Below are positions 52,396 to 63,205 of a stretch of 64,000 nt of DNA, one piece after another. The position numbers were made by a program, and so were the translations under genes. The stretch comes from Phoenix dactylifera. Lineage: Eukaryota > Streptophyta > Magnoliopsida > Arecales > Arecaceae. The stretch is taken from positions 21,731,674 to 21,795,673 of the forward strand of contig NC_052400.1 of the NCBI RefSeq assembly GCF_009389715.1, given 5' to 3'. Position 1 is the stretch's first letter; each line of letters starts with the position of its first letter. The notes below the pieces were generated by a model. It had not been told where the DNA came from. It worked only from the letters and a program-made list of their open reading frames with translations, and did no database searches.

Positions 52396-53120
52396 CGGAG
52401 AGGACGGAAGACAGGGGCTGGCCGGAGGTAAGAGCCGTTGAACGGAGGAGCAGAGCTTCTCTCTCCGTCCCTATCTCTCTTTCTTCGTCCAACTCGGGGA
52501 AAAAGATGGACAAACGCGAACCATAAGGGGGTTTACCCTCCGAACTATGGGGAGGACGGAGGAGAGCTCAGGGAAGGGGCTGGACGGACGTGCGGGCCGG
52601 TAGAGGGAGAGGAGCGTAGCTTCTCTCTCCCTCCCCTCGCTCTTCCTCTCGAGGCCAAGATGGACGGACGCGTAAGTGGTTTTACAATACGGTGAAGGAA
52701 GGCCTCGAGTCCGAACCATCGGAACTTCTCCCGTCTCCGCGTCGTTATCGAGCAGGTTCTGATCTAAAAGACCACTTCGCAACAGTCCAGCGCGCGAAAG
52801 ATACAACACGATCCCAAGCGTCATTGCAAGCGTCACTGTTTATCTACTCGTAAGTGGTACAAAGGCCTCTAAGAGTTGGGGTGCGGTTGCGATGCGAAGA
52901 CCACGCACTCACGCACCCGTCTCCGTCCGGAGAAGCTGGTCCCCAAGGTAACTCTTTCCCGTCACCGCAAACGTCACCCTTCCCTTGCCCCTCGCTCTAT
53001 TAAAGTCACTGCCCTCCGGCCGGGTCTCGCCACATCCACAATCCTCTCGATCCTTTCTGTCTTGACTAGAAATTATTAATTAATTGTTCCAAAGCTTTGA
53101 TCCCTCGCGAACTAGTAGGA
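52396..53120 (+). promoter_or_regulatory. Upstream region of the UGT75 gene
   Basis: GC-rich DNA with inverted and repeated CTTCTCTCTCC words near 52450 and 52620. A weak TATA-like TCTATTAAAG lies near 52996-53005, about 115 bases before the ATG. No upstream coding exon seen. Confidence 0.35.
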
Positions 53121-54545
53121 ATGGAGCAACGCCAACAGCATTTCCTTGTAGTGACCTACCCAGCCCAAGGCCATATCAACCCGTCTCTCCACCTGGCCAA
53201 GCGCCTCGCCCAAACCACCGGCCGTCGCGTCACCTTCTCCACCGCCATCTCCGCTCACCGCCGCATGTTTCCGTCCTTGGCCAAACCCGACGAGGAAGTG
53301 GAAGATGGCCTCCTCTCCTACGTCCCCTTCTCCGACGGCTACGACACTGGGTTCAAAGCCGACACCGACGGCAACCTCGATGACTTCATGTCCCAATTCA
53401 AACTTGTCGGGACCAGAACTCTTTCTGGCATTGTCCACGACCTCCCTGCACGAGACCGCCCCGTATCTTGCATAATCTACAGCATCTTAATGTCATGGGC
53501 CGCCGATGTGGCACGTGATCATGGTATCCCCTCTGTCCTCTACTGGATTCAGCCAGCCACTGTCTTCACCACGTACTACCACTACTTCCATGGCTATGAG
53601 GAGCTGATAACCTCCCACGGTCACGACCCACTGTTTACGGTTGACCTACCAGGGCTGCCACCGCTCCAAAATCGTGACCTCCCGTCCTTCTTAACCGTCA
53701 CCAGTTCCGACGACCCCTACCGTCCTATCTTCGTCGGGGTAAGAGAGACATTTGATACACTGGACCGGGAGGAGAAGACCTCAAAGCCAAGAGTTTTCTT
53801 GAACACCTTCAACAAACTGGAGGCTGATGCGATCAAGGCCATCGGCAACTTGGACCTCATCCCGATAGGGCCTCTGCTGCCGTCCCTTTCTTCAGATGGC
53901 CAGAATTCAAAAGACACCGTCTCCGGTGGCGATCTTTTCGAAGCCGATGAGAAGGGATACATGGAGTGGCTGGACTCGAAGCCGGAGAAATCGGTGGTGT
54001 ACGTAGCATTTGGGAGCATGTCGGTGATAAAGAAGCGGCAATTGGAAGAAATCTTGTGGGGATTAAAGGAAAGCGGGAGGCCTTATCTTTGGGTGGTGCG
54101 GAAGGACAACAGAGGGGAAGGCGTCGAGCTGGAGGATGGAGAGAATGGGATGGTGGTGGAATGGTGCTCCCAGGTCAAAGTGCTCTCCCACCCATCGGTC
54201 GGGTGCTTCGTGACACACTGCGGGTGGAACTCCACATTGGAGAGCTTGATATGCGGGGTTCCAACGATTGGGGTGCCGCAATGGACAGACCAAGGGACGA
54301 ACGCAAGACTGATAGAGGTGTGGGGGACTGGGGTGAGAAGTGAGGTTGACAGATCACAAGGACTGTTAGAGGGGAGCGAGTTGAAGAGGTGTTTGGAGGT
54401 GGTGATGGGGGAGGGAGAGAGAGGGGTGGAAATTAGGAGGAAGGCAACGATGTGGAGGGACAAAGCGCGGGAGGCCATACGTGAAGGTGGGTCGTCCGAT
54501 AGGAATCTGAAGACTTTCGTGGAGGAGTTCGCGAACAAGTACTGA
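53121..54545 (+). CDS. UGT75: UDP-glycosyltransferase, UGT75 family (crocetin/anthocyanidin 5-O type), 474 aa, intronless
   Basis: Family 1 enzyme that transfers glucose from UDP-glucose to a small plant metabolite in the cytosol. Within UGT75, known acceptors include anthocyanins, crocetin, hormones and phenolic acids, so the substrate here is open. Seen: the N-terminal acceptor domain with catalytic His18 in VVTYPAQGHINPSLHLAKRL; the UGT75-style ILMSWAADVARDHGIPSVLYWIQPAT; a linker with YMEWLDSKPEKSVVYVAFGS; and the PSPG box (about 345-388) with WCSQVKVLSHPSVGCFVTHCGWNSTLES and ending QWTDQGTNA, whose D-Q end fits UDP-glucose. The ATG at 53121 opens the conserved MEQxxxHFLVV start. The absence of introns is usual for this group. 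The frame is whole and the length normal. Confidence 0.94.
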   Translation: MEQRQQHFLVVTYPAQGHINPSLHLAKRLAQTTGRRVTFSTAISAHRRMFPSLAKPDEEVEDGLLSYVPFSDGYDTGFKADTDGNLDDFMSQFKLVGTRTLSGIVHDLPARDRPVSCIIYSILMSWAADVARDHGIPSVLYWIQPATVFTTYYHYFHGYEELITSHGHDPLFTVDLPGLPPLQNRDLPSFLTVTSSDDPYRPIFVGVRETFDTLDREEKTSKPRVFLNTFNKLEADAIKAIGNLDLIPIGPLLPSLSSDGQNSKDTVSGGDLFEADEKGYMEWLDSKPEKSVVYVAFGSMSVIKKRQLEEILWGLKESGRPYLWVVRKDNRGEGVELEDGENGMVVEWCSQVKVLSHPSVGCFVTHCGWNSTLESLICGVPTIGVPQWTDQGTNARLIEVWGTGVRSEVDRSQGLLEGSELKRCLEVVMGEGERGVEIRRKATMWRDKAREAIREGGSSDRNLKTFVEEFANKY

Positions 54546-55318
54546 AAATGTCAGTCTTGTCCGAATTATTTTGTCGGGCAGCAAGTTAGATTCTATTCTT
54601 ATTATTATTATTGTAGTCCACGGGATTGAGTCGCGTCCGAATTATTGTTGTTGTCGTTGTAGTTCTTTTTTATATGTAGTCCATCGGATTGAGTCTCGGT
54701 AGAAAAATATTAAGAGTCAAACTATGATAATAAAATAATTGGACTGTTAACTTCTTTTTAAGAAGCAAACTTGAATTGCTTATTCCAATTTATCACACGT
54801 GTCAAAATTAATTATTTCGTTGTTTACTTAATGTAGCTGTTGGTATCTTTTCACCCAAAGTTGCATTTGAATCCTACTACTCAATTTAACTTGAATTGTG
54901 GCTATTTCTATATTTAAATATTCATTAAGCAATAGCAGGCGTCACCGAGTCAGCACATGGCATGAACTATTCAATCAGTATATGGTAGGACCATTTGCTT
55001 CCTCTACCCCTCCATTCAATTGATCGCCACGCGAATAATCTATGATCAAAATGGAACCTCTAGTATAGATTGAAGAGGATCTGAACTCTCTTGCCATAGT
55101 AATTGATATCTTAGATCATCTGTGTCCTATAAACAGAATACAGTTAATTACTATGTCCCGTATTTTCAATCGCTCGGATTATGAGGCAAATGTGTTCTAT
55201 AACAGCTTCTTTTGTCGTGTCATCCATTTTTGATTAATTTGATTTTCAAGTTTTATATCAATTACCTTCCGGCTTTAGACTAACATAGATCATGACCTAG
55301 TCTAAGACTAACAAAATT
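54546..55318. other. UGT75 3' flank and intergenic DNA
   Basis: AT-rich; no gene seen. A short (ATT)n run lies at 54596-54613, in the likely 3'UTR. Confidence 0.4.
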
Positions 55319-55540
55319 CCACGCGTAAGCCCATGGAGGCTATTCCACAGATATGTTAGTGGATGTTATCTCATGCGTAAACTCATAGAAGCTATCCCAC
55401 GTGTAAGCCCATGAAGGCTATCTCATGTGCATTATGTATAAACTCGTAAAAGCTATCCCATGCGTAAGCCCATGGACATTATCCTACGTGTAAGCCCATA
55501 GATGCTATCCTACGCATAAGCTCGTAGAGGTTATCCCATG
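55319..55540. repeat. Minisatellite, 26-bp unit, about eight diverged copies
   Basis: Units follow the pattern CCACGCGTAAGCCCATGGAG + GCTATC, with starts at about 55319, 55345, 55371, 55397, 55423 (carrying a small insertion), 55458, 55484 and 55510. Copies differ at several positions each, so the array is old. Read directly. Confidence 0.88.
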
Positions 55541-56048
55541 ATTAGGTTAGTCCAAACTATATCTTATCCGTCTGAATTATATGTTACTCTTGTCAAATCA
55601 GTTTTCACTTACATAGTGCATCTTTTTTAAATTCAAGGTATCTTGTTCACATAATTATGTTTTCAATATCTAATACATATAATAACTATCCAAATATATT
55701 TATACTAGAACTTATATACAATATACCATTACATGCCAAACTAAATTTATCGATGTAAATATCACGATACAAATCCAGTGGTACAAACCAATAGATATAT
55801 ATACATTTGGTGACCAAGTACAGAAATTCTTACCTCTATCACAATTTGACTAAATACAACAATCACTGAGCCACTTCACGATCTACGATCTAGGGTGTAA
55901 AGTATCCTGTTCATGACCTTCTTGTGCAGATTACTCTCTCTACAGAATCAAACTCAATTATAAAAAAAAATAGACTAGTAACCTAGACCGCCTACCAGCA
56001 TCAGCTAGTGGTCCATCACTTGGTCCCCTGAGTCCCTACTACCACTGA
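55541..56048. other. Intergenic DNA to the left of the CACTA element
   Basis: AT-rich to about 55960. With the CACTA removed, this joins directly to the sequence at 63204 onward. No gene seen. Confidence 0.4.
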
Positions 56049-56084
56049 CACTACAAAAGAAGGAATAACTCCCGACGGTTTTTT

Positions 56085-56485
56085 TTGCCTCTACCGACGC
56101 TTATAAGCGTCGGCGAATTCCTAGCCCACGCTACACAAAGCGTGGGTCAGACGTCGGGCAGGTGGGCGTGGGTCGGGTTTAACCCGACGCGTTAAAAAAG
56201 CGTCGTCGGTCTTTGCCGACGCTTTTAAGCGTCGTTCCTTTTATAAGACGCCGACGCTTATAAGCGTCGGTGATAACGGTTGGTTAGGCCGACGCTTAGA
56301 AGCGTCGTTAAAGGCGTGCCAGTTTACGTTCCGGTTGTGCGTGGGTCGGGTTTAACCGGTCTATGCCGACGCTTTTAAGCGTCGTTCGTTTTCTAAGACG
56401 CCGACGCTTATAAGCGTCGTTAAAGGCGTGCCAATAGTTTACGTTCCGGATGCTTTTCCCGACGCTTATAAGCGTCGGCATTAAA
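56085..56485. repeat. Left subterminal repeat array of the CACTA element
   Basis: About eight to ten palindromic units of the form CCGACGCTTATAAGCGTCGG, with centre variants TTTTAA and TTAGAA. Two further inverted pairs are present: CCCACGC...GCGTGGG at about 56133-56154 and CGGGTTTAACCCG at about 56177-56189. Such subterminal motifs are the binding sites of the TNPA-type accessory protein in known CACTA elements. Confidence 0.88.
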
Positions 56486-56668
56486 TTTTTTTTTTAAAAA
56501 AATTTATGAAAGTAATTTTTAAGTACTCTGTGTACATTAAATTCTAACAAAACAATAGAAACAAATACACTGAATCACATATATAACAAAATACGAGTCA
56601 CAAACAAGAACTTTGATTACATTCATATTATCATATTTGATTACATTGTACTTCAAAAACATTCTAAA

Positions 56669-56739
56669 AACATACAAGTCAAATTCCTACGTACACAATC
56701 TACAATATATGTATCAAGGGTCGGCATCATCATCTCTAC
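56669..56739. repeat. Copy A of a direct repeat flanking the captured block
   Basis: This 71-bp sequence (AACATACAAGTCAAATTCC ... TCGGCATCATCATCTCTAC) recurs at 58404-58472 and differs only by a 2-base AT indel. Copy B abuts the 3' end of the accessory gene, so copy A looks like a duplicate of its 3' flank. Confidence 0.92.
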
Positions 56740-56741
56740 AA

Positions 56742-56816
56742 TATTGTCATTAAGCTTGGGGCGAGCCCAGTCAACCAAGCTCTGCTCCTTGCTCGGGCGA
56801 GTCTTGTCCACAGACC
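56742..56816 (-). pseudogene. Captured receptor-like cytoplasmic kinase fragment, distal part
   Basis: Minus-strand translation reads SVDKTRPSKEQSLVDWARPKLNDN, the stretch after kinase subdomain X typical of RLCK-VII (PBL/RIPK-like) protein kinases. It continues directly from the other kinase piece at 58115-58198, from which about 1.3 kb of other captured sequence separates it. A partial second copy of CTCCTTGCTCGGGCGAGT lies at about 56849-56866. It is not a working gene. Confidence 0.82.
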
Positions 56817-57281
56817 AGAGTCTTCTTAAGCTCTGCTCTGCTCCGCTCCTTGCTCGGGCGAGTATTGTCATTAAACATTCTAAAAGATATTGAAAGAATT
56901 CTTGCGACTGCAACAACAAAAATTACCATTTATTGGGTTAGATTATATAATAATAGAAAGTGTGTGCTGCAAAACTACAATGAGCCTTGAGGAAGTAGGG
57001 TTCTAAGAGTCATAAAACATTAAGTAATCTCCACGAACGTAACATTCACAAATTCACATGCTAACCTGTCAGCTATAGTAAAACAATTATAAGATTATCG
57101 GGTTATCGATTTCTATTGCATTAATACAGGCAGCTTAATACAATAAAAATATAAAAATCCTGTGAATGCGAGATTCCAAAGGCTTTGGTCTGTACCAAAT
57201 GGAACAGATAAAATAAAGAATGTCCATAATGTTGGTAACAAAGCAGAACATGAAATAAAAAGATATTAGGGGATCATGTAC

Positions 57282-58075
57282 CTTCAAGGAACCAACAGTA
57301 GCATTTTGAGGAATCTCAACAAAAAGTTCTGGCACCTTGAAGGACTTGATGCTAAGTTTCACTGAAAGAAAAGGACAGTACACCTCAGAACCTTGTCATA
57401 TCAGGGTCAAAACAAAATGAACCAAGTCAAAGATTTAACAGGCATCATTATTTCAGGTTGCTTATTATATACCTTGGTAATCTCCTGATTCACATGATGA
57501 TTTTTGACCTGTTGCTGAGGATAATGCACCATTCGCTGCAAAAGCTATGTTATTATTTCAAAATTCAAAGTACTACCAAAAAGGTCGGAAGGTAGGTAGC
57601 ACGTGTAAGTAGCTTAAACGATACCAACCTCCATGTAAAGTTACTGGTGAATCACTTGCTTCTACTTTGATGCCACCCTTTCCAGGTGAATTTGTATGGC
57701 CTGGAGAATAAAAACGTTAACAGACATCAAGAACTGTGTATGGTAAAATGTTGAAGAAAACAATATTAAACCAATGTAATTGGATGCATTCAATGCATTA
57801 ATACATTTTACTATGCACAGGACTTCGAAAATTATAGAAGTGCTCGGTCATGGCCAAGGAAAACCAACTCTAGTTTCAACTGTTATGCAACATGTTATAT
57901 GGGAACATAGGGTGAGGTTCAATCTAAATATGCATCAAGAAACAATATGATCAATAAATTGAAAATGGTATCAAGTGATCCGTACGTACAAAGTCGTCCA
58001 TAAATGCCAATCTGTAGTGATCCTGGGACAAGCTGGCAATCACAAAGCATAAGCCCTGCCTCCATGCCTGTTCCA
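57282..58075 (-). pseudogene. Captured telomere-repeat-binding protein (TRFL/TRP type) fragment, introns kept
   Basis: Minus-strand exon-like pieces in order: LCDCQLVPGSLQIGIYGRL (about 58060-58000); GHTNSPGKGGIKVEASDSP (about 57705-57640); NGALSSATGQKSSCESGDYQ (about 57540-57475); and VKLSIKSFKVPELFVEIPQN + ATVGSLK (about 57365-57282), ending at a GTACAT donor. The last is the start of the ubiquitin-like domain that plant telomere-repeat-binding proteins carry ahead of their Myb/telobox domain, which is absent here. Because introns remain, the source was genomic DNA and not mRNA. It is a fragment only. Confidence 0.75.
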
Positions 58076-58114
58076 TTCAGAAAAAAGATTGATACAATCA
58101 GAAAATATAGAATA

Positions 58115-58198
58115 TCTTGTCCACAGACCGGCGTCCTGTTAAGAGCTCAAGAAGGACAACCCCGAAGCTGTAGACATCACTCCTAGCTGTCAAGTGAC
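58115..58198 (-). pseudogene. Captured receptor-like cytoplasmic kinase fragment, proximal part
   Basis: After a splice acceptor (GAGCAG, minus, at 58199) comes [20 protein letters not shown] followed by TGRRSVDK, kinase subdomains IX-X of an RLCK-VII kinase. It stops matching exactly at GGTCTGTGGACAAGA (58129-58115), where the TRFL segment begins. The same 15 bases occur at the start of the distal kinase piece (56816-56802). Confidence 0.85.
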
Positions 58199-58403
58199 CT
58201 GCTCATAGAATAAAATATGATTCAAAATGAACTCACAGCAATTAATTAGAAAAGCAAATGAATGGATGTTGCATTCCATTCTAACAATGAAGGAAAGCGG
58301 AAGAAGGCACATAGGTTTTGATAGATTCTACTTATCATGTTGCTCAAAAAAGATCTCATGATGATCATACAAGATTAATCAAAGGAATCTCCAAAATTTT
58401 AAG

Positions 58404-58472
58404 AACATACAAGTCAAATTCCTACGTACACAATCTACAATATGTATCAAGGGTCGGCATCATCATCTCTAC
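58404..58472. repeat. Copy B of the direct repeat flanking the captured block
   Basis: A 69-bp near-identical copy of 56669-56739, lying about 115 bases beyond the stop codon of the accessory gene (minus sense). Confidence 0.92.
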
Positions 58473-58587
58473 GAGTAGATGAAGTATCATCAACCTACAA
58501 AAAAAAAATATTTTAGAAACTAAAAATACGAAAGTCATCACGCTCATACAAGAATACATTATAATTACATAAAATATTCAAATAGAT

Positions 58588-60287
58588 TTAGTTATGTACC
58601 GGAGGAGCAAATCTCTGCAAAAAGGATGAAATATGGTCAAGCTGATCTTGCAAAGATTGTATCTTCAACTCTTGGCTCTGCTTCAACTCCTCCATATCGG
58701 TCCTATGACTCTGACTCATCTCCTCTATCCTTGTCTCATATGACTGCTTTATCTGTGCCATCTCTGCCTTCAGACTACAAACCTCTGCAGTGCTACTACC
58801 TTGTCTAGCATCTTGGGTATATCGGCTCACTGCAGACAACTGAGTGGGGGTAACTCCAACACCATAACCCCTCACTCGACCATAACGTTCTGGGCCCATT
58901 AATTCGGTATAGACTTGAGCCTCGACGCGACTGGCCGCATCGGATGATGATGACTCCCCGACACGCTCTGAAATAAGAGTTGTAGCTCTTTCCTATATAT
59001 CTCTCAAAAAAAAATGTCACATTAATATTTAAAAAAAATTAAATTTTTTTAAAAAAATATTCTGAACAAAGCAAAAATGAATACATACAACTATATCTCT
59101 CGACTCGTCCCGGACAAAGCTGCCATCTCGGTGAGTGTGGGTCATCTTATAAAACTCTACCTCACCAGGCTCCCTTCCATGCTCTACTATCTACACATAC
59201 GGAAAGTATATTGGCAAACTATATATTATGATACGTGCTATATATTAGTAAAATTTCAAATAGTTTCAAAAGAACTTACGAATTCATTTCTACGTCTCGC
59301 ATAACTCTTCGAGCCTGAAGTATGAGGAACTGCTTGAGATGCTCATGCAGCTCTGCCAATATTAGAATATGTCTGCCAAAATAAAAGCACACAGTATAAT
59401 ATGATTCAATGTATATATTTGCAATCTATATTAATAATAAAGATAATATAAAATATTGAAACAATATACGTGACCTGTTCTTTTTCAGAAAATCAGTAGT
59501 GAACAAGCTCCCTCCACTGCTGAGGGTATACATCAGGAGGAGTCACACGAGCAACCTCGTCCTCTGTCATACCCTCGTGCTTGAAGTCCGTCTTCAATTT
59601 TGCTTTATATTCTTTCCATTTGCGATTGAGGGACTTTAGCACCCAATCATGGCTCTCTGGAGGGAGTACAAACTTACCCTACAACAAGATTCAGAATGTT
59701 ATAATAATATTAAACATCTAAAATAAAATTATGATACTAAGCAAATTAATATACAGGAGGTGTCGAATTAAAAAGAATAAATTCAATTCATTACCTGTAT
59801 AAGTCTAAGAAGCTCAACCTTATACGAAGGAAGCATGTCATTCCACTTCGTATAGTTGAGTGGACACAGCTGACCCTTGCGTGCAACCGATCCTAAAAAG
59901 CTTGATAGTAGACTTCCAGCTCTATTGATAGGCTGCCCCAATTCGTTGCATCGGATGATGATCTTCTCACCCGGAGGAAGCTTCCACACATCCTTTGCTT
60001 GAGTGGGTCCCCGTCTCGTCCTCACCGTCCCTTGTCCATCTATTAAAATTAAATAAAATATGTCTTAAAAAGTTGAAGACAAATATGAACATAAAATATG
60101 AACTTTAAATCGAATTATCCTGGATCCGGAGCTCATCCTCCGGGCAATCAGCAGGAGGCTCGCGCTGAGATCCTGACTCGTGCTGCTGATGCTCACATGG
60201 CTGCTGGGACTGTAGGGACTGATCAGAAGTAGATCCCATCTGAGAATGCTGGAACTCCACATCTCTAAATCGTCTCCCTCGGGGCAT
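58588..60287 (-). pseudogene. CACTA accessory protein gene (Ptta/En/Spm plant transposase, TNPA-like), broken
   Basis: Minus-strand exons: A from ATG 60287 to about 60110 (Ser/Gln-rich MPRGRRFRDVEFQHSQMG); B 60039-59795 (RRGPTQAKDVWKLPPGEKI, CNELGQPINRAGSLLSSFLG); C 59678-59475 (GKFVLPPESHDWVLKSLNRK, YPQQWRELVHY); D 59372-59280 (HTSGSKSYARRRNEF); E 59190-59089 (EHGREPGEVEFYKMTHTHRD); F 58992-58588 (coiled coil of KAEMAQIKQSYETRIEEMSQ type, stop at 58590). This is the standard layout of the plant En/Spm accessory protein, which binds subterminal repeats. Two in-frame TGA codons interrupt it: one in C at 59495-59493, where relatives have Trp, and one in D at 59345-59343. The exon A donor is not recognisable. 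The gene is therefore inactive as read. Confidence 0.85.
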
Positions 60288-62586
60288 ATTATTACCTGGT
60301 ATCTGTATTAAATATCTGTATTCAGAAATGACACCACAGTTGGAGAGCATACAGAAATGATATCTGTATTCAAGATGAAGGATATATGTAAATGCAAGTG
60401 GGCAGCACATACTATGCTACATGGCCCGTTGGCCTCCCATCTGTCACTTACGGTCATCTTTTAAACTAGCAAAGACAACAAAGGTAGCAACACACCAAAT
60501 ATAAATACAGACCAACCCCTTATATTAATTCTCCTTGTCTCGTATTGCTGGAAAGAGAGATTGGCACAAAGAGAGATTGGCACAATTCATCTTTGGATTT
60601 TTCTTTTATCTCGTATTTAGGCAGACAAGATTAGGGTTTTATTTTCCATATTGAGATGATCCTAGGTTTTAGCATTGCTTTGGCTAATTGTTTCTAATTA
60701 CTAATTCAAAAAGGAGGATCCATTTGATATATTGACATTCCATTTTTAATAAATAAATAACATATATCTTTAAAAAAGGAAAACTCCCAGCTTAACAAAT
60801 CCAATCTCCAATTATCAAGACCATTAAAAGAATATAGATGGTTTGAATACAACCACTAATGCAGGTAGCGACCTGAACCTCAACAACTAATAAGATATTT
60901 TTGACGCCACAAAATTATGTAACACAGCCTCTCACATGCCTCTCTGTTGTCCTCAGTATACCTGATAGAACAATCATATCATATACACTCTATACCGGTA
61001 GAATCCCCAGTCTGAAACAAAGACAACTAAAAAGCTTAAATCAAAATTCTCTGACAGATCTGCTGATGAAGGGAAATTCCTCCAAAGAAATAAAGCTTGT
61101 AAACTTCTAAAGGGGAAAACAACAGAAAGAGGAAAAAACAACAGGCACTCTTAGGCATGACAACCTCAACCGGAGAAGCTGTCACATCCATCAATAAGAA
61201 TGCTAATAGCACTACCATAGACAACAGATGATTCCTCACCTTGAATCTGTCATCTCCGGTTCACCTGACATGGGAGAAGCAAAAATTGTAGGAACCTAGA
61301 ACAAGCCCTAACAATCAGACCTCAGGAAGACCGTGGCACTGTAGGTCCTCAAGAACAGAGCCAACCAATACATGGAACTCTGCAACCTACATCAGTTCTA
61401 CCCCAGCTGAGGAAACGGTAAACAACAAGAATACCAAGACAAATCCAATCTGCACTACAGCAACAATCATCACTGAGTAGTAGTGCTGCCCAGCTTCTCT
61501 TTCTCAATCTCTACTCTTCTCTGATCAGCATGTTGAGCTATGCCACTGGCAAGTGCTTGATAGTGGAAGTCCAAGGTCTGCATTAGGCTCTGGAACCATC
61601 TATATTCATTAACAATTTGATAAATTGTTAATGAGAAAGTAGATCAAATTCATGCATTGCTTTCCAGTGCTATGCGATTCTACAGATTGTATAAAACTCC
61701 ATTATGCCCCATCTATTGCTAATAATTAAGAAGTCAATAAATGCTTTTCACTACTATTTTTAATAAATAAATAGTACTCTTTATTATTGGTGACATAGTT
61801 GAAAATAACTTCCTAATTTTTTTGGATCTCTCTATGAAAATAAAATAAAGAGAATATATTTCCTATTCCTTAGTTATCCTAACTTATTTGCAAGGACTCT
61901 TCAATCAAATTAGCAATTTTAAAGATCTTAACAAATTGACTCTGCTTTTAGGGTTTTAAAAATCATGTATCAGTGACTAGTATTCTTTTTCTTAAGTGAG
62001 TATTAGGATACAGAGTGTATAACATGTGGTTTTAATTAAAAAGTGAAAGATAATATTGGATGGAATTCAGAGGGTATTTTTACTTGTACAATTAGAAGGG
62101 ATGGAATTCAGCCTCTTACAATCTCAGATACAATTATTTATTTTAGAAATTACGTAAATGGCAGATGCCTAACTCTAGTTATAAAACTTAAAAAGAATGC
62201 AGAAATATATATATATTTTTTTTCCTGACGGCTTACAGGTCTTTCATTGGTACAACCAATAAAATTAAAAAAAAAATTGATGGAGAGGAAAAAGAACAAT
62301 CTCATAAATCTTCCAGATTTATTTTAAATATTTAATTAATCTTCCAGATTAATTAAATATTTTTATCTTCCAGATGCAGTTTTCAAGCAGTTACTCAATG
62401 CGGTGGGGGATCATTTTCCATTGTATTCAATTTCTAGGTTATTTTGATACCCATATATGTGTATTTCTGCTCATTTTGATACCCACTATTTCCAAAATTT
62501 CAGAAACTAAATATTACCTTAAACCTTTAAGATTTAGCCCTCTAACGTCAAAAATCTAACGTAAAGAAAATTAAAGATTAGGTCTC
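60288..62586 (-). other. Interior of the CACTA element without recognised transposase
   Basis: AT-rich DNA between the leader exon and the coding exons of the accessory gene. I searched both strands by eye for TNP2 motifs (N-terminal CPCxxC-type and DDE segments) and saw none. A tandem CTTCCAGATT repeat lies at 62309-62371 (three copies). Confidence 0.5.
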
Positions 62587-62945
62587 ACCTTGATGATGGC
62601 TTCAACAACTTAGCTTTTTCCCCGTCACCTTCTTCTCCAAAGCACCCACCAGCGATGACGAGGCGGCAACTGACGAGGCTCCGTTGAGAGGAGGAGAAGA
62701 GGGAGACAGCGGAAGGAGGAGGCGGAAAATGAGAAAATAGAGAAAAAGAGGGGATGGGAGGCGCCGGTGTTGGGTGGTCGGAGAGAGGAGAGGCGGTGGA
62801 ATGAAGGCCGCGCGAGGGGGGAAAGAGCGCGAGGGACGGAGGGAGAGAGAAAGGCGGTGGCCGTCGGACGTCGCTCGGCGCCGGAGAGGAGAGGAGGGAG
62901 GAGGAGAGGAGCTAGGGCTTGATTCGATCGGGATGTAAAATGAGG
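62587..62945 (-). other. GC-rich promoter/leader of the CACTA accessory gene
   Basis: On the minus strand this is a CT-rich, GC-rich leader (AATCAAGCCCTAGCTCC, then many CTCCTCTCC words) ending CATCATCAAG|GTGAGACC at about 62588, a good splice donor. It probably supplies the first non-coding exon of the accessory gene. It lies next to the right subterminal array, the usual promoter site in CACTA elements. Confidence 0.55.
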
Positions 62946-62984
62946 AGGAAGGGGCCGGCCGCTTGGTTTTGTTGTTAATTTGGC

Positions 62985-63185
62985 TTTTGACGACGCTTAT
63001 TAGCGTCGTTTTATCTTGGGACTATGACGACGCTAATAAGCGTCGGCTATTACAACGACGCTTTTGTGCGTCGTCTTTTCTTGAGAATTACCGACGCTTA
63101 ACTAAAGCGTCGGCATATTTTGGCGGGGAACCCTTTTTTCCCGACGCTTCTCCCTAGCGTCGGGAAAAAAGCGTCGGGAAAGGCC
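62985..63185. repeat. Right subterminal repeat array of the CACTA element
   Basis: About six units of the GACGACGCTTATTAGCGTCG / CCGACGC...GCGTCGG type, the counterpart of the left array at 56085-56485. Confidence 0.88.
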
Positions 63186-63205
63186 AATTTTTTTGTAGTG
63201 TGAAC

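Follow-up and report, generated by a model that had tools for sequence, protein, structure and literature searches.

A CACTA transposon in the genome of the date palm (Phoenix dactylifera) carries fragments of three host genes nested in one another: part of a telomere-repeat-binding (TRFL/TRP) gene lies inside part of a second gene, here called gene 2, and gene 2 lies inside part of a kinase gene. The same genome holds the three donor loci, copies of the element for each stage of nesting, and copies that spread later with different internal deletions. We consider it very probable that the fragments were acquired by successive captures (kinase, gene 2, TRFL) immediately behind the stop codon of a tnpA-like gene, through repair-linked template switching, a mechanism that we infer from its end products.

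Structure of the element

The window, a stretch of 64,000 nucleotides at C9:21,731,674-21,795,673, belongs to the Phoenix dactylifera assembly (773.1 Mb, 2391 sequences). On C4 of this assembly, the frames at 24,051,178-24,054,765, where the date palm gene VIRESCENS is located according to PMC10673830, include what was recognised by eye as R2R3-MYB repeat sequence. The element occupies positions 56049-63200 of the window (7152 bp; minus strand, after its tnpA-like gene). Its terminal inverted repeats start with CACTA: the left end at 56049 is CACTACAAAAG, and positions 63188-63200 on the minus strand are CACTACAAAAAAA. At the other end stands TTTTTGTAGTG, the final letters of the element being TTTTTTTGTAGTG. 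A target-site duplication, TGA, flanks it on both sides (56046-56048 on the left, 63201-63203 on the right). The palindromic subterminal repeat CGACGCTTNTAAGCGTCG is found at both ends, on the left at 56093-56477 and, in diverged form, on the right at 62991-63073, with 20 strand-matches at 10 sites against a mean of 0.02 in shuffles. Membership of the CACTA (En/Spm) superfamily is confirmed by the CACTA ends, the 3-bp target-site duplication and the subterminal repeats, and the sequence-only reading, made before the present analysis, had rightly placed its telomere-binding fragment inside such an element. The two other copies with an identified right end also have 3-bp duplications, TTA in L012 and ATA in L023.

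Twenty-two loci of 10 kb were fetched. In 15 of them the first 22 element bases are identical and the flanks differ; the remaining seven (L011, L015, L016, L026, L027, L029 and L030) hold donors or gene relatives. The date palm family is probably non-autonomous; on the right side of the window copy, of L013 and of L023, no open reading frame is of TnpD size, judged by frame length. Positions 60747-62838, which have no match at E<=1e-8 in L009-L030 (several of which end before the right end), could contain an additional insertion. A short tandem-like array (55316-55564) with a unit around CGTGTAAGCCCATGGAGGCTATCC lies close to the left end of the element, and 1.5 kb to the left is a long open frame (53070-54545), presumably resembling a plant glycosyltransferase (HCGWNSTLES motif).

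The gene at 58447-60302 (minus strand), whose exons were read by eye and whose last exon (58447-58494) has the stop codon at its end, is taken by us to be tnpA-like from its resemblance to plant En/Spm TnpA-type proteins. Pfam scans of its exons gave no match at E<=1, nor at E<=0.1. Exons read in this way contain in-frame stops in the window copy; the stop near 59345 is absent in 10 of the 11 other copies aligned, its site not being found in L009. The last tnpA exon and the 3' UTR are present twice, as a duplication of about 80 bp. The original 3' end (56658-56739, minus strand) lies on one side of the captured block and the second copy (58393-58472, minus strand) on the far side, with the whole block between them. 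All captured fragments have the orientation of tnpA and lie downstream of its stop codon.

Captured fragments and their donors

The host-gene fragments between the element ends come from three donor loci and include intron sequence. The outermost is the kinase piece. Its upstream part (58117-58392, minus strand) consists of an intron and an exon and differs at 3 of 276 positions from the donor at C12:4,304,346-4,304,690 (L033), which continues past the captured piece. The kinase exon is split by gene 2: 58117-58198 closes with ...RRSVDK, and 56740-56830 resumes with TRPSKEQSLVDWARPKLNDN. The downstream part as a whole (56740-56880, minus strand) comprises this rest of the exon and a patchwork filler at about 56823-56885, made of kinase and 3' UTR pieces. 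The match of the kinase piece to PF07714 (E=8.9e-5, 22.3 bits) is just under the cut-off of 23.1; we assume that the fragment derives from a receptor-like cytoplasmic kinase gene.

Gene 2 is likewise present in two parts on the minus strand. The upstream part (57689-58116) matches the locus at C14:3.417 Mb (L015) with 97.2% identity over 430 bp, and the downstream part (56881-57085) with 99%. The donor L015 contains both halves together with 134 bp absent from the window; the same 134 bp, replaced by TRFL in the window, are present in L012, L013 and L014. L015 appears degenerate, and the exon-like piece of gene 2 in the window (57990-58067) has lost two bases relative to it. A relative of gene 2 on C10 (L026) is 76-86% identical. 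L027 (G000:C10:348000-357999) nearly duplicates L026 at a distance of 84 kb, its gene-2 relative including a stretch that is unreadable, and is possibly a local duplication or an assembly artefact. Neither gene 2 nor the side-branch insert described below has a Pfam match.

The innermost fragment, the TRFL segment, consists of three exons and two introns (57082/57086-57688, minus strand) and corresponds to C13:11,959,070-11,959,677. Exon A (57629-57700) is chimeric, beginning with a splice acceptor and a few bases of gene 2 and continuing as TRFL; exon B (57473-57535) matches the donor exon; exon C (57282-57361) encodes the first part of the ubiquitin-like (UBL) domain. All three, on the minus strand, have GT/AG sites, and one shared frame stays open through them. 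The 27 residues of exon C alone match PF23603 (Ubiquitin_TPR1) at profile positions 2-28 with E=1.5e-13. The sequence-only reading had described exon-like pieces with splice-like borders on the minus strand, the last of them encoding the beginning of the ubiquitin-like domain of TRFL, and this is what we find.

Identity between the C13 locus and the window copy is 99.2% over 597 bp, both introns included; there are 4 substitutions in 603 bp and one missing base. The donor extends beyond the captured piece on both sides. It has a long exon upstream, the other half of the UBL domain (PF23603 positions 29-68, E=3.8e-19) and a Myb-like start, which at E=0.035 does not reach the Pfam cut-off; its further downstream exon has no Pfam match. 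With 28 of the 69 UBL profile positions and the Myb region absent, the feature in the window counts as a piece of a TRFL gene, not as such a gene itself. Two substitutions are common to all element copies that cover those sites. At one of them the element copies share the base of the ancient duplicate L016, so that change probably arose in the donor after copying.

The claim that intron-bearing genomic DNA of a telomere-binding gene had been copied into the element is thus borne out by the donor on C13 (TRFL locus at 11.96 Mb), found with matching introns by the search of the same genome that had been recommended. Two outcomes had been named as speaking against it, namely no TRFL hit, or a segment normal to the whole family with no host donor; the TRFL match and the donor exist, and so do family members without the segment. 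The count of four TRFL exons holds for three of them. The 5'-most piece, 57990-58067, matches the C14 locus, where equating it with the fourth piece is our reading, as that piece was described without exon coordinates. A four-exon TRFL capture is ruled out, the fourth piece being gene 2 (C14:3.417 Mb). The range proposed, 57282-58075, overlaps the TRFL segment, yet starts about 200 bp inside it and ends about 390 bp beyond it. That TRFL is the innermost of three nested captures had been missed.

A search of the genome with PF23603 gave 13 matches (15 of 15 candidates scored). Four loci have both halves of the profile, and five CACTA copies have just the first. Since there are more transposon copies with the first UBL exon than loci with two halves, exon-based counts of this family would be inflated in date palm, and annotators of its telomere-binding genes should treat transposon-borne first UBL exons with caution.

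Copies at successive stages

Elements with the kinase piece only, uninterrupted and with a tnpA 3' end on each side, occur in at least 11 places. The best 40 of 371 candidates were scored in the survey of this stage, and its counts are lower bounds. For 2 of the 11 (L032 and L035) the inner structure, between their own tnpA 3' copies, was confirmed in fetched sequence. Kinase together with gene 2 is present in three copies, L012-L014. All three fragments occur together in 8 places (12 of 12 candidates scored). The CACTA left end is seen and the flanks differ at each of the eight; the right end was read in the window copy only. The captured TRFL copy has thus moved with the element to several places.

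The length of the TRFL piece varies among these places. It is 1491 bp on C8, and the match of L010 to the donor covers query positions 20-1510 of 1521. On C121, C118 and C16 (2.004 Mb) 314 bp are present; at C4:19.39 Mb and C14:20.38 Mb 92 bp are left and the UBL exon is gone. The window and C13:3.259 Mb have a common shortened upstream TRFL border. Overall, seven of the eight copies have lost part of the piece.

A side branch of four copies (L022-L025) leaves gene 2 within a different insert of 1.2 kb, situated at the same spot of the element; L028 is a deleted relative. The insert (L022:5732-6938; also in L023, L024 and L025) has exon-like stretches ending in ...KKKLKSSKSN and a stop, in the direction of tnpA. 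The stage classes leave out, for example, copies on C40, C4:22.98 Mb (L036), C6 and C176 and two on C1.

Borders, divergence and mosaicism

At the border of TRFL and gene 2 (57082-57085) the microhomology TGTT is found, and at that of kinase and gene 2, GA. The automated check found microhomology at 2 of 5 borders and 2-3 unassigned bases at the other 3, and we claim no significance for this; we think that the proxy parents are at fault for the three. One of these three is the upstream border between gene 2 and TRFL in L010, for which a 2-bp filler is one reading and TTC microhomology accompanied by the loss of 3 bp is the other. At the return border of gene 2 the order is gene 2, 13 bases of 3' UTR, 12 of kinase tail, 19 of kinase exon, scraps, and kinase exon again, in pieces so short that chance can partly explain them.

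Differences from the donors number 3 in 276 and 5 in 87 for the kinase (27 donor positions overlap), 12 in 629 for gene 2 and 13 in 1470 for TRFL in L010. The comparison of gene 2 with TRFL gives P=0.076, and that of kinase and gene 2 pooled with TRFL gives P=0.020, 27 kinase positions being counted twice. Going in the same direction, these divergences would weakly support the nesting order. If palms are assumed to change at 2.6e-9 per site and year, the 13 differences in 1470 positions between L010 and the donor would correspond to about 1.7 million years, an age on which we do not rely.

The tnpA block (58329-60302), when the window is compared with 11 other copies, is a mosaic of divergent tracts. 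Differences from the window peak at 59600-59800 in L012 and L013 (15 of 200) and at 58600-59600 in L014 and L017. In the four-gamete test, 1397 of 4656 pairs are incompatible (97 informative sites, 12 copies). Incompatibility between neighbouring sites is 0.112 against a permutation mean of 0.300, and 0 of 1000 permutations were as low. The element copies are recombinant mosaics, and because of this a single-tree dating of the CACTA family would mislead.

Origin and possible consequences of the captures

How cut-and-paste transposons acquire host genes is still debated. As the stage copies and all three donors are found in one genome, the order of events, the borders and the losses are directly readable here. 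In the first step, we suggest, a piece of the receptor-like cytoplasmic kinase gene on C12 was copied in, and about 80 bp of the tnpA 3' end were doubled around it. A piece of the unrelated gene-2 locus (C14) would then have been copied into the kinase piece, and about 1.49 kb of the C13 TRFL gene into the gene-2 piece; the TRFL insert would later have shrunk to about 0.6 kb in the window copy. At each capture, repair synthesis on a broken or excised element might have switched to a host gene and returned at short homologies. Such template changes would lead at times to a sister element and at times to a host gene. We read the microhomology and patchwork at the borders, together with the mosaic copies, as traces of template switching during repair. 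The subsequent spread was presumably driven by transposase supplied in trans.

The published Pack-CACTA model offers another route. If elements inserted in tandem on either side of a host segment lose their facing ends and move jointly, element sequence is expected to be doubled on both sides of the kinase piece, as it is, and the duplication of about 80 bp would be parental overlap. Fusion of two neighbours around the kinase gene would account for this outer duplication just as well. Captures 2 and 3 fit poorly: gene 2 lies inside the kinase piece, TRFL lies inside gene 2 in exchange for 134 bp, no element sequence adjoins TRFL, and what adjoins gene 2 is a kinase/UTR patchwork. Fusion would moreover require close double insertions at three donor loci. 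The two inner captures are thus hard to account for by fusion of neighbouring elements, and we regard this origin of the nest as unlikely next to successive template switching.

There are several conceivable consequences of the captured exons. Because they lie downstream of tnpA in its own orientation, read-through transcripts would be in sense, and the suggestion of antisense RNA made in the sequence-only reading is not supported. At most, then, the captured exons would be transcribed in sense within tnpA read-through RNA. The TRFL exons are most likely without protein function: with a UBL domain that stops after 28 of its 69 positions, no Myb region and seven of the eight copies shortened, a role as protein is improbable. 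Small RNA matching the TRFL parent, also put forward earlier, is possible judging from the identity between the two.

Sense orientation is common to 4 of 4 fragments (kinase, gene 2, TRFL and the side-branch insert, the fourth by its exon-like reading), for which chance gives 1 in 16. One could speculate that the tnpA 3' end is a preferred site for repeated insertion of host exons in sense, where a spliceable chain grows and its read-through RNA touches telomere-binding and kinase genes; we find this distinctly doubtful.

It is quite improbable, in our opinion, that the gene-2 acceptor and TRFL exons A-B-C serve as exons of a chimera, joined by splicing to tnpA or to genes close to insertion sites. 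The GT/AG sites are intact, the three exons are open in one frame, and the fragments of Tgm-Express1 are spliced likewise (PMC1947982). The window tnpA, as read by eye, carries in-frame stops, however, and a UBL domain cut at this point does not give a whole domain.

Very improbable is also a regulatory cargo, in which exons were kept since read-through or small RNA silences, or threatens, the TRFL, kinase or gene-2 parents; the idea of epigenetic conflict is discussed in PMC8978399. Exact matches to the donor locus are found for 462 of 580 24-mers of the TRFL piece, including all 97 of 97 in exons B and C (20 of 37 in exon A). The captured fragments are in tnpA sense, eight TRFL copies exist, and copies with the first UBL exon only (five) outnumber the loci with both halves (four). 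Against this, the shortening of TRFL in 7 of 8 copies, two of which retain 92 bp and no UBL exon, resembles drift, and the gene-2 exon of the window is two bases short.

Finally, that the segment is a TRFL pseudogene or local duplication hit by a CACTA insertion has proximity alone in its favour and is practically excluded, since the segment, whole or partial and with common borders, is found at 8 places with differing flanks, each time beside one and the same CACTA left end. A simple pseudogene or a chance similarity is ruled out by the PF23603 match, the donor and these eight places.

Comparison with known systems

Gene capture by CACTA elements is already known; what is notable is a well resolved nest, three fragments deep, with its stages and donors in one genome. 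No earlier report of this date palm element was among the matches listed in our literature search, where most subscription journals lay outside the scope and the term 'cacta' was confounded by Cactaceae. The captured TRFL exons resemble TRFL/TRP1-type proteins in their PF23603 match and are unlike them in the truncated UBL domain and the lack of a Myb region. As to the strict criterion for a Pack-CACTA element, no transposase homology, the date palm element has a tnpA-like gene recognised by resemblance and without a Pfam match.

Tgm-Express1 of soybean is a CACTA element with five host-gene fragments, and splicing of its cargo is documented (PMC1947982). Both elements hold a number of host-gene fragments in which exons and introns are retained. 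In date palm, unlike in soybean, the fragments are nested, the intermediates are found in the same genome and the tnpA-like gene is kept. Pack-CACTA and other Pack-TYPE elements are, similarly, elements with terminal inverted repeats that copy and spread host coding DNA, and the model given in PMC8903248 and PMC13317346 is fusion of neighbouring elements. It fits the two inner captures in date palm poorly, and here the tnpA-like gene remains.

For maize Ds2 and Ds-l4, errors of break-repair replication were suggested as the cause of capture (PMC3260210). There too, intron-bearing gene fragments were copied from another chromosome; these elements belong to the hAT superfamily, and the captures described are single. 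Animal Pack-TIRs show microhomology at breakpoints, for which gap filling or fork-switching followed by transposition was proposed (PMC8277862). Some of the date palm borders share such microhomology, in a plant element and with three successive captures. In CACTA elements of Chenopodium (PMC8978399), host-gene fragments are likewise placed outside the coding part of the element; there the captured genes are upstream of ORF1, whereas in date palm they are downstream of the tnpA-like gene.
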